Below, one piece after another: positions 6,686 to 43,811 of a DNA stretch of 64,000 nucleotides; positions within the stretch are counted from its first letter, which is position 1; each line of letters starts with the position of its first letter. This stretch comes from Daejeonella oryzae DSM 19973 (GTDB taxonomy: Bacteria; Bacteroidota; Bacteroidia; Sphingobacteriales; Sphingobacteriaceae): NCBI RefSeq assembly GCF_000422945.1, contig NZ_AUHA01000008.1, positions 1 through 64,000 of the forward strand. The letters run 5' to 3'. Position numbers and translations under genes: made by a program. The notes under the pieces were generated by a model. That model ran no database searches and had not been told where the DNA came from. It saw nothing but the letters and a program-made list of their open reading frames with translations.

Positions 6686-9217
6686 TTACTCTTCTTTCTT
6701 TTCTTCTTTTTTCTTCTTTCCACGAGATTTTCCAATGATGCGAATCTCTTCTTTCTCCTTGTCATAATCTACTTCCATTGTATCCCCAATGGTTAGTTCG
6801 CCTTTTAAAATCTCTTCAGCAATTGGATCTTCGAGATGCTTTTGAATTGCACGCTTAAGCGGACGGGCACCAAAATTAGCATCGTAACCTTTGTCTGCAA
6901 TAAATTCTTTAGCCGCGTCGGTCAGTTTTACTTCATAGCCCAATGCTTCAATTCTTTCAAAGAGCGATTTCAGTTCGATATCAATAATTTTGAAGATTTC
7001 TTCTTTTCCTAAAGAATTAAATACAATTACATCATCCACCCTATTTAAAAATTCAGGTGCAAAAGCACGTTTCAATGCATTTTCTATAACACCTCTTGAA
7101 TAAGAATCGGCTTGCGTAGATTTTGCAGATGTAGAAAATCCAACTCCCTGTCCAAAATCTTTCAACTGACGGGCACCGATATTGGAAGTCATGATTACAA
7201 TTGTATTTCTGAAATCGACCTTACGTCCCAAACTATCGGTAAGCTGACCTTCATCCAACACCTGCAATAAAATGTTAAAAACATCCGGATGAGCTTTTTC
7301 AATCTCATCTAATAAAATCACTGAGTAAGGCTTACGTCTCACTTTTTCAGTCAACTGTCCTCCTTCTTCGTAACCAACGTATCCCGGAGGCGCTCCTACT
7401 AATCTCGAAACAGCGAATTTTTCCATATACTCACTCATATCCACCTGGATTAAGGAGTCTTCGGTATCAAACATAAATCTTGCTAATTCTTTTGCAAGCT
7501 CAGTTTTACCAACACCTGTTGGACCAAGAAAAATAAACGATCCAATTGGTTTTTTCGGATCTTTTAGACCTGCTCTTGTTCTCTGAATAGCCTTAGTCAA
7601 TTTTCTAACGGCGTCTTCCTGACCAATTATACGGGTATTTATAGAGTCAAACATTCCAAGCAATTTCTGGCTGTCTGTTTGTCCTACTCTTTGAACCGGA
7701 ATACCGGTCATCATGGAAACCACTTCGGCTACATTATCTTCTGATACAGTATAGCGTTTGGTTTTTGTTTCTGCTTCCCATTCAGTTTTTGCTTTTTCAA
7801 GCTCTTCAAGCAAATGTTTTTCAGTGTCGCGAAGTTTTGCAGCTTCTTCATACTTCTGACTGCGAACTACCTTATTCTTTTCAACTTTAATTTCTTCGAT
7901 TTTTTGCTCAATTTCAATAATCTTTTCAGGAACATGAATATTTGTTAAATGCACCCTTGAACCCGATTCATCCAAGGCATCAATTGCCTTATCAGGAAGA
8001 AAACGATCAGTAATATATCTTGATGTTAAGCTTACACATGCATTGATGGCTTCATCTGTATACGTTACTCCATGATGTTCTTCGTATTTCTCTTTAATGC
8101 GGTTTAAAATTTCAATAGTTTCATCCGGAGTAGCGGGCTCTACCATTACTTTTTGAAAACGACGATCTAGAGCTCCATCTTTTTCTATATATTGACGATA
8201 TTCATCTAATGTTGTAGCTCCAACACATTGAATTTCTCCCCTGGCCAATGCCGGCTTAAACATATTTGAGGCATCCAATGAACCGGACGCACCGCCTGCA
8301 CCAACAATAGTGTGGATTTCATCAATAAACAAAATTACATCCGGTGATTTTTCAAGCTCATTCATCACCGCTTTCATACGCTCCTCGAACTGACCGCGAT
8401 ATTTTGTACCGGCAACCAATGAAGCCAAATCAAGAGTAACCACTCTTTTATTAAAAAGAACCCTTGAAACTTTGCGCTGAACTATTCTTAATGCCAAACC
8501 CTCTGCAATAGCAGATTTACCAACACCGGGTTCACCAATTAAAATTGGATTATTCTTTTTTCTTCTGGAAAGAATCTGAGAAACCCGTTCAATTTCTTTC
8601 TCTCGACCAACAATCGGGTCTAGTTTACCATCTTCGGCAGCACGGGTTAAATCACGGCCAAAATTATCCAGAACAGGAGTTTTAGATTTTATATCCGAAA
8701 CTTTTTTTGGCTGATTAAAGCTTTCCTCTTCTCTAAAATCATCATCTCCGGCTGGAGAACCTGGCGCTTCATCTCTGAAACTATCTTTATTACTTTCTAC
8801 TTCTGTTTTAAAAACATCATAGTTAATATTGTACTGCAACAATATTTGTGAGGCTATATTATCCTCATCGCGTAGTATTGAAAGAAGTAAATGTTCTGTA
8901 CCAATTACATCACTTTTAAAAATTTTTGCTTCTAAATATGTGATTTTTAAAACCTTTTCTGCCTGTTTGGTTAATGGAATATTACCCAGATTTACCGTTG
9001 TGCTTGAAGTTCCTTTAACGGCATCTTCTACAGATCTGCGCAAACGTGCGGTATCAACCCCAGAACTTTTAAGTATTTTTATGGCCATTCCATCTCCTTC
9101 ACGGATAAGTCCCAGCAACAAATGCTCGGTACCTATATAATCATGACCTAATCTTAAGGCTTCTTCCCTACTATATGAAATTACGTCTTTAACGCGTGGT
9201 GAAAATTTTGCTTCCAT
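6686..9217 (-). CDS. clpC: ATP-dependent Clp protease ATP-binding subunit ClpC
   Basis: Hsp100 unfoldase that feeds proteins to ClpP. Domains in order: double Clp-N repeat (1-145), D1 AAA+ module with Walker A GEPGVGKS at 228-235, an M/UVR-like helical segment (about 420-470), D2 module with GPTGVGKT, and a C-terminal D2-small domain. The 843 residues fit ClpC rather than ClpA or ClpB. The tail is very rich in Lys and Glu. It stands alone between a bidirectional terminator and a divergent ettA. A -7-like TAACTTTG lies upstream at 9288-9295. Confidence 0.95.
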
Positions 9218-9287
9218 TATATCCCTTTCTTGATGACAATTCTCTAAGCTATTAATAAATGATTTATATGCTTAGAGGTGAACGTAA

Positions 9288-9295
9288 CAAAGTTA
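9288..9295 (-). promoter_or_regulatory. -7 element upstream of clpC
   Basis: TAACTTTG on the minus strand is a perfect TAnnTTTG box about 70 bases upstream of the clpC ATG. No clear TTTG was found at the expected distance, so the full promoter is uncertain. No heat-shock element of the CIRCE type was seen. Confidence 0.35.
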
Positions 9296-9403
9296 TCAAC
9301 AATTACGCCATTTAGTTTATAATGGTTTCCCAGCATTTTTCAGGAAACAAAGTTGACAGCCGTTTGACTAATTTACCGATATTTGCGCATCAAAATATAA
9401 CAT

Positions 9404-12234: not shown

Positions 12235-13083
12235 TTAGAATCCGAACATTAAGCCAAAAGACAGATTTTTAAAATCAGCAGGTCCCTGCCCTTCTGCAAA
12301 TACATCATTAAAGTAGTATTTTGCATATACTCCCATTCCACCATAACCTAAGCGGCCAAACGCACCGTATCTGAAAGGCTCAAAATTATAGTCATCTTTA
12401 AATTTTTCTTTCCCACGCTCATTACTTACCTGCTTTAACTTTCCATTAATAAGAAAACCAACTTCAGGTCCGAATACAAAATTCACTTTATTTCCCTTTT
12501 CATCATCCTTGGTACGCAGTTGAAAACCAAGAGGAACTCTTAAATATTGACTTGAAAATCTATTCTTTTTGAAATCAATAGTTTCATCAACATATGTTAA
12601 GGTTGGCTGCTTTTTCTGAAAGGTAATATTTTCTTTTAAACGCATATGGTTCCAGTCCAGGCCTGCTGCCAGATAAATTTTGAAATAGCTGTTAAAACGA
12701 TAGCCCATCTGGAAGACTTCAAATCCAAAATTACTTGATTTCCAGGTTTCCCGCTCCAGGTAAGAATTAGCATCAGACAAAGTGAAACTTCCATTATCAA
12801 GGTAAGTGCTTAAGCCAATATCAATTCTCGAAAAGGTAAATTGAGTAGAAAACTTGGATGATGGTCTGAATTCCTTTACTGTACTGTCCTTTTTAACAGT
12901 ATCCTTTTTACCAAACTCAAATGTAACCCGTGTTTTTTTCTTTTTGGATAAAGTATCGGTGGTAATTACCAACACTGTATCTCCTTTAGATTTAATAAGA
13001 GTTGTATCCTTTTTTGCTTTTTCCTGAGCAAATGAACCTGCCGTGAAGGCTCCTAATAGTAAACAAATGATTAATCGTTTCAT
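12235..13083 (-). CDS. Outer membrane beta-barrel protein of an ECF sigma locus
   Basis: Predicted outer membrane barrel. Residues 1-19 are a signal peptide ending FAQ. A Lys/Thr/Asp-rich spacer follows (about 20-75), then alternating amphipathic strands, and the protein ends with Phe (SFGLMFGF), the usual barrel C-terminus. At 282 residues it could form 8 strands. The gene is 2 bases after the inner-membrane partner gene and third in an operon after the sigma factor. The specific function is unknown; a sensory or structural role coupled to the sigma factor is inference. Confidence 0.75.
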   Translation of the reverse strand: MKRLIICLLLGAFTAGSFAQEKAKKDTTLIKSKGDTVLVITTDTLSKKKKTRVTFEFGKKDTVKKDSTVKEFRPSSKFSTQFTFSRIDIGLSTYLDNGSFTLSDANSYLERETWKSSNFGFEVFQMGYRFNSYFKIYLAAGLDWNHMRLKENITFQKKQPTLTYVDETIDFKKNRFSSQYLRVPLGFQLRTKDDEKGNKVNFVFGPEVGFLINGKLKQVSNERGKEKFKDDYNFEPFRYGAFGRLGYGGMGVYAKYYFNDVFAEGQGPADFKNLSFGLMFGF

Positions 13084-13085
13084 GG

Positions 13086-13808
13086 TTATTTATTTCTGCT
13101 TTTAAATTTTACTAATCCTAAATTGATACCTGATATTTCTGAGCCTTCATCGCTCTCTTTAAATTCAATAATTTTATCTTCACGCTTATCTACCTGGGCA
13201 ATTACAAAATTCACCAGACCTCCAACACCTTTAACTTTCCGCCTTGGAGCTTCCTCTTCCTGGACATTGATTAATGGCTCAGTATCATTTTCTTGTACAT
13301 AAATCCGATCTGACGAAACAGGCTGCGCCGCAATGATATTTTCATTTTTAATTTTTTCCTGATTAGAGGCAAGCAATTCTTCGTTTAAATTTTCCCCTTT
13401 AATGAATTGATCTTTTTTAACTTCCGTATCATTTTCCCTGGCTTTGGATTGATGAACAGCATATTGTTTACGGGCAACAATTTTCACTTCCGGTTTTACA
13501 ATATCTTCAGCAATACTTTCCCCGGTTTTATCTGTTGTTTCCACATCTTTAGCCGCCATTTCATGCTTCTCCTGTTTACCCCGCAGTTTGACAACTTCTA
13601 CAGGTTTATAAAAATACAGGGTGGCAGATAAAAGGATCAGCACACTTGCTGCTGCCATCCAGTAAGGAGAATTTGATTTTTTCTTCCTGTCTGTCCCTTT
13701 GAGTTCCGCATCAATTTTTGACCAGAGTCCTTCTGATGGTTGGGTTTCAAAATCTTCGAAACGCTGCTTAAATAACTTATCCAGATTTTTATCCGAGATG
13801 GGTTCCAT
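13086..13808 (-). CDS. Single-pass inner-membrane protein, probable anti-sigma partner
   Basis: A 240-residue protein with a cytoplasmic N-terminal segment (1-48), one membrane helix (about 49-67, WMAAASVLILLSATLYFY) and a charged, low-complexity periplasmic region rich in Lys and Glu. The N-terminal pattern LFKQRFEDFETQPSEGLW is conserved in proteins encoded after Bacteroidota ECF sigma factors, and a similar pattern starts the fused protein at 42630. The gene overlaps the sigma gene by 20 bases. An anti-sigma role is likely from position and topology; no classical zinc anti-sigma motif is seen. Confidence 0.65.
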   Translation of the reverse strand: MEPISDKNLDKLFKQRFEDFETQPSEGLWSKIDAELKGTDRKKKSNSPYWMAAASVLILLSATLYFYKPVEVVKLRGKQEKHEMAAKDVETTDKTGESIAEDIVKPEVKIVARKQYAVHQSKARENDTEVKKDQFIKGENLNEELLASNQEKIKNENIIAAQPVSSDRIYVQENDTEPLINVQEEEAPRRKVKGVGGLVNFVIAQVDKREDKIIEFKESDEGSEISGINLGLVKFKSRNK

Positions 13809-14358
13809 ATTTCAAGTCCTCCATTTTTAATATTTTTTCTTTTAAGATTGCCCGTGCCCGGGATAGTTGTGATTTGGATGCGCCTTCAGTAATACCTAGA
13901 CTTTCTCCAATTTCCCGATGCGAAAATCCTTCGATCACATACATATTAAATACCATTCTGTAACCGCTTGATAATTGCTGAATAAGCTTCAACAAATCTT
14001 TAGTTTCAAGCCCGGTCATATCAAAAGTATTTTGAGGCTGCTCTTTAACTTCGTCGATATCTACAATACTGAGGCTGCGCAGATTCTTTCGGTAAACTTC
14101 TATTGATGTATTTACCATAATTCTTCTGATCCAGCCTTCCAAAGAACCTTCATTTCTAAACTCCCCAATTTTTCTGAAAACCTTTACAAAGCCCATTTGC
14201 AACATGTCCTCTGCTTCAAAGTTGTCTTTAGCATACCGCTGACAAACAGCCAGCATTCGGGATGCCAAAGTTCTGTAGAGGTTTTCCTGCGCTTTTCGAT
14301 CTCCGCGTTTGCACCCTTCCAGCAAATTCTCTATTGTAAATGTATGATCCAAATTCAT
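13789..14358 (-). CDS. ECF RNA polymerase sigma factor
   Basis: Sigma-70 family extracytoplasmic-function regulator of 189 residues. Region 2 covers about residues 13-80 (LLEGCKRGDRKAQENLYR, AEDMLQMGFVKVFRKIGEF). Region 4 covers about 125-175 (GYRMVFNMYVIEGFSHREIGESLGI, SKSQLSRARAIL) with a helix-turn-helix. It closely resembles the sigma factor at 42014 in region 4. It overlaps the downstream anti-sigma-like gene by 20 bases. A candidate -7 box lies immediately upstream, so the transcript may be leaderless. Confidence 0.88.
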   Translation of the reverse strand: MNLDHTFTIENLLEGCKRGDRKAQENLYRTLASRMLAVCQRYAKDNFEAEDMLQMGFVKVFRKIGEFRNEGSLEGWIRRIMVNTSIEVYRKNLRSLSIVDIDEVKEQPQNTFDMTGLETKDLLKLIQQLSSGYRMVFNMYVIEGFSHREIGESLGITEGASKSQLSRARAILKEKILKMEDLKYGTHLG

Positions 14359-14365
14359 ATTGCTT

Positions 14366-14373
14366 TAAAGGTA
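14366..14373 (-). promoter_or_regulatory. -7 element upstream of the ECF sigma gene
   Basis: TACCTTTA on the minus strand, 8 bases before the ATG at 14358, resembles TAnnTTTG, with TTTC about 17 bases further upstream. The predicted transcription start coincides with the start codon. Confidence 0.4.
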
Positions 14374-14519
14374 AGATGACAGATACCTAAGAAAGGTTGC
14401 ATAGCGGCGAGATTTTTTTTTTAATTAATATCATCAAGATTTTAGAATCACTTTCTTTATAGATTCCTGAGACTTGCGGGCTGTAATTTTTGCTAAATTT
14501 AACAACCAAATAATAAATC

Positions 14520-41780: not shown

Positions 41781-42013
41781 CCTTTATAAATTCTGTTAGG
41801 GATGGGTAAATATAAGTTTTACCCGCAAAATGTGCGGTAGAAGTTTTTAACAAGCGCACGAAATTTTTATAATTTTTAGGATGCTATTTTGCCCGAGGTT
41901 TATTGCAGTTCGCAGCCGGCGATGGCACTTGCAAAAAACCTAAATAATTACTTCATTTACAACATCTTATATGTTAATATTAATAGCAAAGCAACCATTT
42001 TATCAATACTTCC
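41781..42013. other. Divergent intergenic region between parC and an ECF sigma gene
   Basis: The 233 bases hold the start regions of two divergent genes. I found no perfect TAnnTTTG box with a correctly spaced TTTG on either strand and no hairpin with a T-run. Confidence 0.4.
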
Positions 42014-42703
42014 GTGTTAGTATCAGATCAAGATAATTTGGAAAACTCTTCCCAGGATTTACCGGAGGATTTGCGTGACGGATGCTTGCGTCAAGACCCT
42101 GGCAGTCAAAAAAAACTTTATAAAAAGTTTTATGGCCTTGCAATGGCTATTTGTTTGCGCTATGCCCAGAACCGGGAAGAAGCTGTTGACATTATGAATG
42201 AAGGTTTTTACAAAGTTTTAATCCGCTTTGACAAATACGATTTTAATAAACCCTTTAAACCCTGGCTCAGTAAAGTAATGACCAACACTGCTATCGATCA
42301 TTACCGAAGTAGCATTCGCCATAGCATTCATCAGGTAGAGATCACTGAAATTAATGATTCAGGAATAGAAGCTTCTGTTTACAGCAAATTGAATTACGAG
42401 GAATTGCTCAAACTGGTGCAACAGTTGCCAAACGGATACCGTACGGTATTTAATCTGTTTGCAATTGATGGCTATACACACGAGGAAATAGGTAAAATCC
42501 TGGGAATTTCTATTGGAACTTCAAAGTCTAACCTTTTCAAAGCCCGCCAAAAATTAAAAGAATTTTTATTACAAGGAAACAATCATTTTAACAATAAACC
42601 TGAAAAGGGAAACAATGACATAAATACCGATGAAGAAATTACATCAAGATCCTATGGATCAGTTTTTCAAGGAAGCTCTGGAATCTCCGGACCTGAATTA
42701 TGA
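42014..42703 (+). CDS. ECF RNA polymerase sigma factor (second locus)
   Basis: Sigma-70 family ECF factor of 229 residues starting at a GTG codon (no earlier or nearby ATG in frame). Region 2 is about residues 25-95 (DGCLRQDPGSQKKLYKKFYG, MNEGFYKVLIRFDKYDF). Region 4 is about 140-190 (GYRTVFNLFAIDGYTHEEIG, GTSKSNLFKARQKLKE). It matches the sigma factor at 13789 closely in region 4. A hydrophilic tail of about 35 residues extends past region 4 and overlaps the next gene by 74 bases. Confidence 0.85.
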   Translation: MLVSDQDNLENSSQDLPEDLRDGCLRQDPGSQKKLYKKFYGLAMAICLRYAQNREEAVDIMNEGFYKVLIRFDKYDFNKPFKPWLSKVMTNTAIDHYRSSIRHSIHQVEITEINDSGIEASVYSKLNYEELLKLVQQLPNGYRTVFNLFAIDGYTHEEIGKILGISIGTSKSNLFKARQKLKEFLLQGNNHFNNKPEKGNNDINTDEEITSRSYGSVFQGSSGISGPEL

Positions 42704-43811
42704 GGATAAGGACTGGCAATCTTTAGAAAAATTATTAGCAGACAAATCGCGGAAACGTAATTTATTGGCCTGGCGGATGCTTGCTGGCATAGCTGCTGCT
42801 TTACTTATCTTTTTTTCTTTGTGGTTTTTCAGAGTGAATCCAGTTTCTGAGAAGGAAAATAATTATTCAAGTTTAGATAGGATAAATAAATCAGTGCCAA
42901 TAGATGAGCCGAAACCCTTATTTTCAGATAGAAAACCAGCAGAATTAAAAATATTACAGAAGCCGAATCAGCAATATTATTCCGAAAATATTTCAAGTGA
43001 AAAAAAATCTGGCAATGGATTAACTTTAACAGATTTTACTGATGTAAAGGTACTTTCGATTCCGTATGTCACATCACTAAAAGCCAATAATAATGGTACG
43101 CCAGATACTGAAACTATTTTAACCGACCTGTCTCTATCGAATGCCTCACAAAAATCAGCTGAAACTACTGGTCAAACGATACGTCCAAAATCCGATATTT
43201 CTTTTAGAAGAACCAGTTTCTCATTAGGATTATCTCCGGATCTGAACTCAGCCGAAAAGTTTAATACAAGTAGTTTGGGAACCAGTTTTGGAATTGGTGC
43301 AAGCTATCGTATAACTAAAAGTGTCAATTTAAATAGCGGATTGTATTATTCTAAGAAAATATATTCCGCAAATCCTGAAAATTATAAATCTTATGAAGCT
43401 CCCTTTAATTATGCCCAATACGCCCGTTCAATTGATGCTGATTGCCGGGTGTTGGATATCCCGGTAAATATTGGATTCAACTTAGCCAACAAGCCAAAGC
43501 AAACAGTTTTTGCCAGCGTAGGGCTTTCATCCTATTTTATGATGAAGGAGAAATATACTTTTATCCGGAAAACAAATTCAGGATATCCTGCCACCGGGCC
43601 AGAACCATCTTATACAATTGATCAAAAAAATAATCATATTTTTAGTGTAATCAATATCGCTGCAGGAATTTCAAAACCTATAGGTAAAAACACAGATATT
43701 ATTATTCAACCATATGCTAAACTTCCATTTACGGGAATCGGTCAAGGAAAAATCAACCTGCAATCGATTGGCGTCGCTTTTCAGCTAAATTACAAATTTG
43801 AGAAAAAATAA
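42630..43811 (+). CDS. Fused membrane-anchored anti-sigma-like / beta-barrel protein
   Basis: A 393-residue protein with a cytoplasmic N-terminus (1-47, with DPMDQFFKEALESPDLNYEDKDW), one membrane helix (about 48-67), a Ser/Lys-rich spacer (about 70-195) and a C-terminal outer-membrane-type beta-barrel domain (about 195-393, with SFSLGLSPDLNS, FGIGASYRITKSVNLNSGLYY). In the locus at 12235-13808 the same parts are two separate genes. The start overlaps the sigma gene by 74 bases; Met9 is an alternative start. An anti-sigma role is inferred from position. Confidence 0.75.
   Translation: MKKLHQDPMDQFFKEALESPDLNYEDKDWQSLEKLLADKSRKRNLLAWRMLAGIAAALLIFFSLWFFRVNPVSEKENNYSSLDRINKSVPIDEPKPLFSDRKPAELKILQKPNQQYYSENISSEKKSGNGLTLTDFTDVKVLSIPYVTSLKANNNGTPDTETILTDLSLSNASQKSAETTGQTIRPKSDISFRRTSFSLGLSPDLNSAEKFNTSSLGTSFGIGASYRITKSVNLNSGLYYSKKIYSANPENYKSYEAPFNYAQYARSIDADCRVLDIPVNIGFNLANKPKQTVFASVGLSSYFMMKEKYTFIRKTNSGYPATGPEPSYTIDQKNNHIFSVINIAAGISKPIGKNTDIIIQPYAKLPFTGIGQGKINLQSIGVAFQLNYKFEKK

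Follow-up and report, generated by a model that had tools for sequence, protein, structure and literature searches.

In FecI-FecR-FecA signalling, a sigma factor, an inner-membrane anti-sigma factor and an outer-membrane barrel relay a signal across both membranes. These are separate proteins, with a FecR domain and a 22-stranded TonB-dependent receptor. A single-chain layout has been described in the Dma family of Bacteroides thetaiotaomicron. As set out in the parts of the Dma paper available to us, these proteins consist of an N-terminal sigma-binding domain, a helix, a long disordered tether and a C-terminal barrel, lie next to an ECF21 sigma gene and are stated to be confined to Bacteroidota (PMC13088901). 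For Dma1 and Dma2, with their adjacent sigma gene, the same text gives genetic evidence for sigma control, and the vesicle effect of dma2 deletion in B. thetaiotaomicron depends on das2 (PMC13088901). A second precedent is the Phocaeicola vulgatus anti-sigma/sigma pair M0N98_03760/03761, predicted in the sections of the paper that we consulted to span the periplasm and end in a C-terminal outer-membrane barrel, with the sigma gene upstream (PMC9308784). A similar B. fragilis pair is cited beside it. According to the same sections, an antibacterial toxin switches on the P. vulgatus pair, an effect put down by the authors to envelope stress, and the anti-sigma mutant had 15 genes changed and a lengthened O-antigen (PMC9308784).

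We analysed a stretch of 64,000 nucleotides from Daejeonella oryzae DSM 19973 (the window), in which an ECF sigma factor ORF is followed by a 393-aa ORF of similar layout. The architecture is already published, in the Dma family and the P. vulgatus pair, and the window gene can be placed with them from its architecture and gene order. The system is real, conserved and of an already described kind, in other Bacteroidota families. The features of the locus are as follows.

Positions 41991 to 42017, forward strand: ECF-type promoter-like element GCAACC-N16-CGTGT, conserved in relatives (weight-matrix score 26.2).
Positions 42014 to 42703, forward strand: ECF sigma factor ORF, 229 aa from a GTG (Pfam Sigma70_r2 1.7e-12, Sigma70_r4_2 6.3e-16).
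Positions 42630 to 43811, forward strand: predicted Dma-type dual membrane-spanning anti-sigma-like protein, an ORF of 393 aa.
Positions 42630 to 42761, forward strand: residues 1-44 of that protein, the anti-sigma-like module, with two predicted helices and a conserved D-x-xFF/LFK...W pattern, homologous to the N-terminus of the split-system protein.
Positions 42762 to 42830, forward strand: single predicted inner-membrane helix, residues 45-67 (Kyte-Doolittle, AlphaFold2, 78/80 relatives).
Positions 42831 to 43211, forward strand: putative disordered periplasmic tether, residues 68-194 (pLDDT below 50 at 69-88 and 98-190).
Positions 43212 to 43796, forward strand: predicted 8-stranded outer-membrane barrel, residues 195-389 (block pLDDT mostly above 90, NspA match, OMP_b-brl_2 E 1.3e-4).

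A sequence-only reading had described the 42630 gene as a cytoplasmic segment, one inner-membrane helix, a spacer of about 125 residues and a barrel, directly after a sigma factor. This description was confirmed. The two ORFs overlap by 74 nt, and a Kyte-Doolittle scan of the 393-aa protein gave one hydrophobic helix, at residues 51-69. AlphaFold2, run on a 29-sequence alignment, placed helices at 8-18, 26-36 and 45-67, followed by low confidence at about 69-190 and then eight strands within 195-389, with a pTM of 0.54 for the whole chain. In the N-terminal module, D10 and W29 were invariant in 29/29 rows. The linker is 125 residues long in the window protein and 113-191 residues across 107 rows of relatives, never shorter than 113, and its sequence is unconserved. 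It is kept long yet free of sequence constraint, which fits a tether. With a helix at 45-67, a linker of 125 residues and an 8-stranded barrel in the model, a single chain could span the periplasm, as that reading had also suggested, and the 393-aa protein would then be inserted in both membranes.

The net charge over 15 residues averaged +2.8 on the N-terminal side of the helix and +0.7 on the C-terminal side (107 rows), a bias that would be expected for an N-inside orientation. Charge was higher before than after the helix in 73 of the 107 rows, and the positive-inside signal is thus not uniform. We also considered whether the helix is a cleaved signal peptide. The conserved 44-residue module ahead of the helix and the rarity of AXA-like sites near its end (5/107 rows) argue against this reading, which we rejected; to judge from these alignments, the helix bears little resemblance to a signal peptide at an N-terminus.

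The barrel domain was compared with solved structures and matched 8-stranded outer-membrane barrels over nearly the whole length of those structures. Of the outcomes that would have spoken against the sequence-only reading, a soluble or open barrel domain or a cleaved signal peptide, none was seen. Against NspA (1p4t) it scored Z 16.3 with an rmsd of 2.9 and 153/155 residues aligned, and against OmpA (9a2m) Z 16.7 with an rmsd of 2.8 and 164 aligned. The top match was a small porin, 9nh2 (Z 17.0, rmsd 4.5, 177 aligned), and both NspA and OmpA lie within 1 Z of it. The domain is best read as a closed 8-stranded barrel, with closure suggested by the whole-domain matches of the model, and it would be located in the outer membrane. 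C272, P278, E307 and Y309 of the barrel were invariant in 29/29 rows. In Pfam, OMP_b-brl_2 (PF13568) reached 22.5 bits, below its gathering cut-off of 27, and OMP_b-brl reached 21.1 bits, below its cut-off of 28.7. The fused protein had no Pfam match to a FecR domain or a TonB-dependent receptor at E up to 1.

Conservation was examined first within the family. With the 393-aa protein as query, 99/151 same-family genomes gave a match at E <=1e-3, some of these being barrel-only or paralogous. Among the same-genus genomes listed, 12/19 matched the fused protein and 7/19 did not, indicating that the system is dispensable. In all 29 relatives fetched, a sigma match lies directly upstream (two as partial ORFs), and the membrane helix is present in 28/29, the exception being truncated. 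A scan of named genomes gave 399 loci, of which the best 80 were used for neighbourhood counts. A sigma ORF lies directly upstream in 80/80 of these best 80 loci, and a helix falls within the first 90 residues in 78/80, one exception being truncated and the other lacking a called helix. This adjacency and the helix count indicate that the arrangement is not due to chance. The fusion is kept in 79/80, the exception being a truncated ORF of 190 aa; ranking by match to the fused query favours full-length fused forms, and this figure does not measure fusion loss. The 29-relative and 80-locus sets overlap, their 109 rows comprising 90 distinct sequences.

Named carriers were Daejeonella, Pedobacter, Mucilaginibacter, Parapedobacter, Solitalea, Prolixibacteraceae, Sunxiuqinia and a Roseivirga, the nearest being mostly Daejeonella. 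Of 395 genomes of the phylum that were searched with a profile, 105 matched at E 1e-5, many of them over the N-terminal part or the barrel only. Full-length profile matches were also found in one family outside the window's class.

A promoter-like element is also conserved at many of these loci. GCAACC-N15/16-CGT occurred before the sigma gene in 65 of the 80 named loci (63 with N16), scanning 450-1000 nt before the sigma stop codon. Controls gave 0-1/80 in ten mononucleotide shuffles and 4/80 in downstream stretches of up to 3 kb. The 15/80 loci without the element in the scanned stretch include most of the more distant ones. A weight matrix built from the 65 sites, with the window excluded, scored the window element at 26.2 and the next site in the window at 14.2, and random first-order sequences contained 0.02 sites scoring >=20 per 64 kb. 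The exact sequence GCAACC-N16-CGTGT occurs once in the 3.45-Mb genome, upstream of the sigma gene.

A stricter pattern, GCAACCWTT-N13-CGTR, was searched in 101 family genomes. Of its 89 matches, 32 precede a fused gene in the same orientation, 11 are divergent from one and 46 lie elsewhere. Thus 43/89 lie within 1.7 kb upstream of a listed fused gene. The reversed pattern gave 43 matches in total (counted by hand), close to the 46 elsewhere, and the excess therefore sits at the fused locus itself. From the matches listed for the 101 genomes we also took 54 genomes that bear the fused gene (match at E <=7.6e-15, leaving out weaker or barrel-only paralogues), and 32/54 carry the pattern on the same strand. 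In one same-genus genome it was missing at the fused locus and present elsewhere. For a wider regulon in the window's own genome, 15 one-mismatch matches were found against 11 for the reversed control, which is near chance. The single exact copy and the excess at its own locus imply autoregulation and a narrow regulon; the element is presumed, from its sequence and position, to be the target of the sigma factor that it precedes.

The site scoring 14.2, upstream of a clpC-like gene (9271-9301), was not assigned to this sigma factor, since it has AAACC in place of GCAACC and persists in relatives that gave no fused match in the family search. This ECF-like element probably belongs to another sigma factor. 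Before the clpC-like gene (6686-9217, reverse strand, named by eye), AAACC-N14-18-GGCGTAATT was found in 17/20 same-genus genomes, and GGCGTAATT in 19/20.

The GTG at 42014 lies within the -10-like part of the element, indicating that the sigma factor probably starts downstream; by reading, TTG 42038 is a candidate for the true start. Among 25 NCBIfam families listed of 104, the ECF superfamily alone was above its cut-off for this protein.

Genes next to the locus provide candidate targets. In 25 of the 80 loci the fused gene is followed, on its own strand, by two genes for a YceI-like protein and a membrane barrel of the DUF5777 type (Pfam was run on one pair), and three further loci have a gene for a Lipoprotein_15 protein downstream in the same orientation (Pfam run on two). 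A divergent copy of the element was present upstream of the sigma gene in 27/80 loci. Judged by its first 70 residues, the divergent gene product is Lipoprotein_15 repeat-like in 19/27 (Pfam confirmed 3/3 tried), cytochrome c-type lipoprotein-like in 3/27 (two tried, both below the Pfam cut-off) and glycosyltransferase-like in 3/27 (one tried, above cut-off); no ORF was called in 2/27. YceI, DUF5777 and Lipoprotein_15 proteins may thus be targets of the system. In the window genome, the fused locus has no YceI, DUF5777, Lipoprotein_15 or other such partner adjacent to it; it is flanked upstream by a topoisomerase-like gene (named by eye) and downstream by a GDPD gene. A DUF5777-YceI operon away from the fused locus (C1:768000-769700) lacks the promoter element. 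A Lipoprotein_15 search of the same genome gave 0 matches; control genomes also gave 0, so the search may miss such proteins.

The window contains a related system in which the barrel is a separate protein.

Positions 13789 to 14358, reverse strand: paralogous ECF sigma factor of the split system, with 39% identity over 170 aa to the sigma factor at 42014.
Positions 13086 to 13808, reverse strand: anti-sigma-like protein of the split system; its N-terminal module is homologous to that of the fused protein, and its C-terminal tail is conserved.
Positions 12235 to 13083, reverse strand: separate barrel protein of the split system, with a signal-peptide-like helix at 2-17 (OMP_b-brl_2 5.7e-10, above cut-off).

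The two sigma factors had been called closely similar; they are homologous, and at 39% identity over 170 residues the word closely was generous. The likeness of the two N-termini, also proposed from the sequence, was borne out. For the first ~44 residues, hhalign of the fused against the split protein gave a probability of 96% (E 2e-9), and a separate profile search detected the homology at E 3.4e-10. When the fused N-terminal profile was run against 305 ORFs, the split protein was the best match after the fused protein itself (E 3.8e-8), the next being at 0.0012. The split barrel also has eight main strands in its predicted model and its best structural match is likewise NspA (Z 13.4, rmsd 2.8), and it exceeds the Pfam OMP_b-brl_2 cut-off of 27 with 40 bits. 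Profile-profile comparison of the two barrels found no detectable homology (probability 3.3%, E 0.013).

Matches to the split anti-sigma-like protein were found in 90/101 family genomes at E 1e-3. Among the matches listed, all 54 fused-bearing genomes had a split-type hit (E <=1e-3); with counting from E 1e-3, some weak hits may be other anti-sigma N-termini. This coexistence, together with barrels that profiles do not match, weakens the inference of a functional link from one fused and one split locus. On these grounds the Rosetta-stone argument of the sequence-only reading was rejected in its strict form; of that interpretation, the chain that could span the periplasm is supported, and the Rosetta-stone argument is weak. 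From these comparisons, the two look like parallel, coexisting paralogous systems and not two states of one. The sigma factor and N-terminal module of the split locus (12235-14358) are homologous to those of the fused locus, but its barrel is separate and without detectable sequence homology, and its anti-sigma-like protein ends in a conserved tail of its own.

In that protein (residues 185-240 considered), the last 55 residues are far better conserved than the preceding linker, parts of them being 72% and 81% identical in two relatives, and are presumably periplasmic. This tail may be what docks on the barrel encoded next to it. At the split sigma gene the -35-like GCAACCTTT is similar and the -10 differs (14372-14402 in the window, reverse strand). 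To judge from these motifs, the promoters of the two systems may be separable. A third related sigma and anti-sigma-like protein lie elsewhere in the genome (C1:722500-729000), where the N-terminal module matches the split-type profile at E 2.9e-5. They are followed by a 401-aa protein without a called membrane helix.

The gene order, N-terminal homology, helix, disorder, barrel fold and promoter-element conservation were established by computation. We consider it very probable that the two genes form a Dma-type sigma/anti-sigma switch, with barrel-linked sensing, signalling along the tether and transcription of its own operon, and its likely function is outer-membrane sensing. The fused protein would act as an anti-sigma factor, with the product of 42014-42703 as its cognate sigma. 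Residues 1-44 would hold this co-encoded ECF sigma factor in the cytoplasm, the helix would anchor the chain in the inner membrane, the disordered tether of ~125 residues would cross the periplasm and the barrel would sit in the outer membrane. The trigger at the outer membrane might be a ligand that reaches the barrel, a barrel that fails to assemble or envelope stress of another kind. The signal would pass along the tether, probably via proteolysis at the inner membrane, and free the sigma factor, which would then transcribe very few envelope genes besides its own operon, the latter from GCAACC-N16-CGTGT.

In a narrower form of this switch, to which we give somewhat less than an even chance and whose likelihood overlaps with that of the wider one, the barrel reports insertion by BAM with no external ligand; upon failed insertion the unfolded barrel or the tether would be cut, and the sigma factor would be released. 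The barrel is of the minimal 8-stranded type, in line with this form. In the sections of the P. vulgatus study that we consulted, the toxin inducing the similar pair also induces many genes responsive to bacteroidetocin A, an inhibitor of BamA (PMC9308784). However, the invariant barrel residues (e.g. C272, E307, Y309; 29/29) could equally mark a ligand-binding site.

A broader proposal, tentative and on balance rather unlikely, is that the fused and split systems realise a single design in two ways, with a sigma factor directly controlled by an 8-stranded outer-membrane barrel. One would be tethered covalently and the other would dock the periplasmic tail of its anti-sigma protein on a separate barrel, the fused system governing, apart from itself, little more than a single envelope module (YceI/DUF5777 or Lipoprotein_15/cytochrome c). 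If so, the fused system would be a compact, dedicated outer-membrane sensor outside gut Bacteroides.

The presence of a split version in the same genome would also suit a chain that is cut constitutively, its barrel and anti-sigma module being joined for co-expression only and its halves working separately. We regard this as improbable, given that the fusion is kept in 79/80 named loci (in a set ranked by the fused query, which favours fused forms) and that the linker keeps at least 113 residues despite its drifting sequence, which points to a role for the physical connection. That the protein is an ordinary porin-like one with an odd N-terminus and an incidental sigma neighbourhood, as the finding by Pfam of outer-membrane barrel domains only, and weakly, might suggest, is scarcely credible and largely contradicted by the conservation data, with a sigma gene adjacent in all fetched loci, an N-terminus homologous to another sigma-linked protein and a shared promoter element.

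For the Dma-kind switch that we favour, a 2024 Dma paper may already cover the breadth of distribution (PNAS 2024). The promoter element and the candidate targets (YceI, DUF5777, Lipoprotein_15) are added here, and we did not meet them in the portions of the Dma-related literature examined. A literature search combining anti-sigma factor, Pedobacter and outer membrane beta-barrel found no paper. In the text available to us, the Dma proteins studied so far belong to Bacteroides of the gut and have been linked with the production of vesicles (PMC13088901). The same layout is now seen in Daejeonella, Pedobacter, Mucilaginibacter, Prolixibacteraceae and a family outside the class. The sharp promoter element and short target list make the question of what the barrel senses testable with a single reporter, in an environmental bacterium that is easy to handle.

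Compared with known systems, the fused protein differs from FecR/FecA signalling in having a barrel of 8 strands in a single chain, whereas FecA is 22-stranded and the Fec proteins are separate. It shares with the P. vulgatus pair, as far as the consulted sections describe it, the span and the upstream sigma gene; the organisms differ and the likeness is one of layout. Dma, in the part of the text consulted, is linked to vesicles and NigD; no such link is known for the fused protein. The same four parts occur in the same order beside an adjacent sigma gene in both, a likeness of architecture and gene order as judged from that text. The window system is found in other Bacteroidota families, where its neighbours in relatives are YceI/DUF5777 or Lipoprotein_15 genes.
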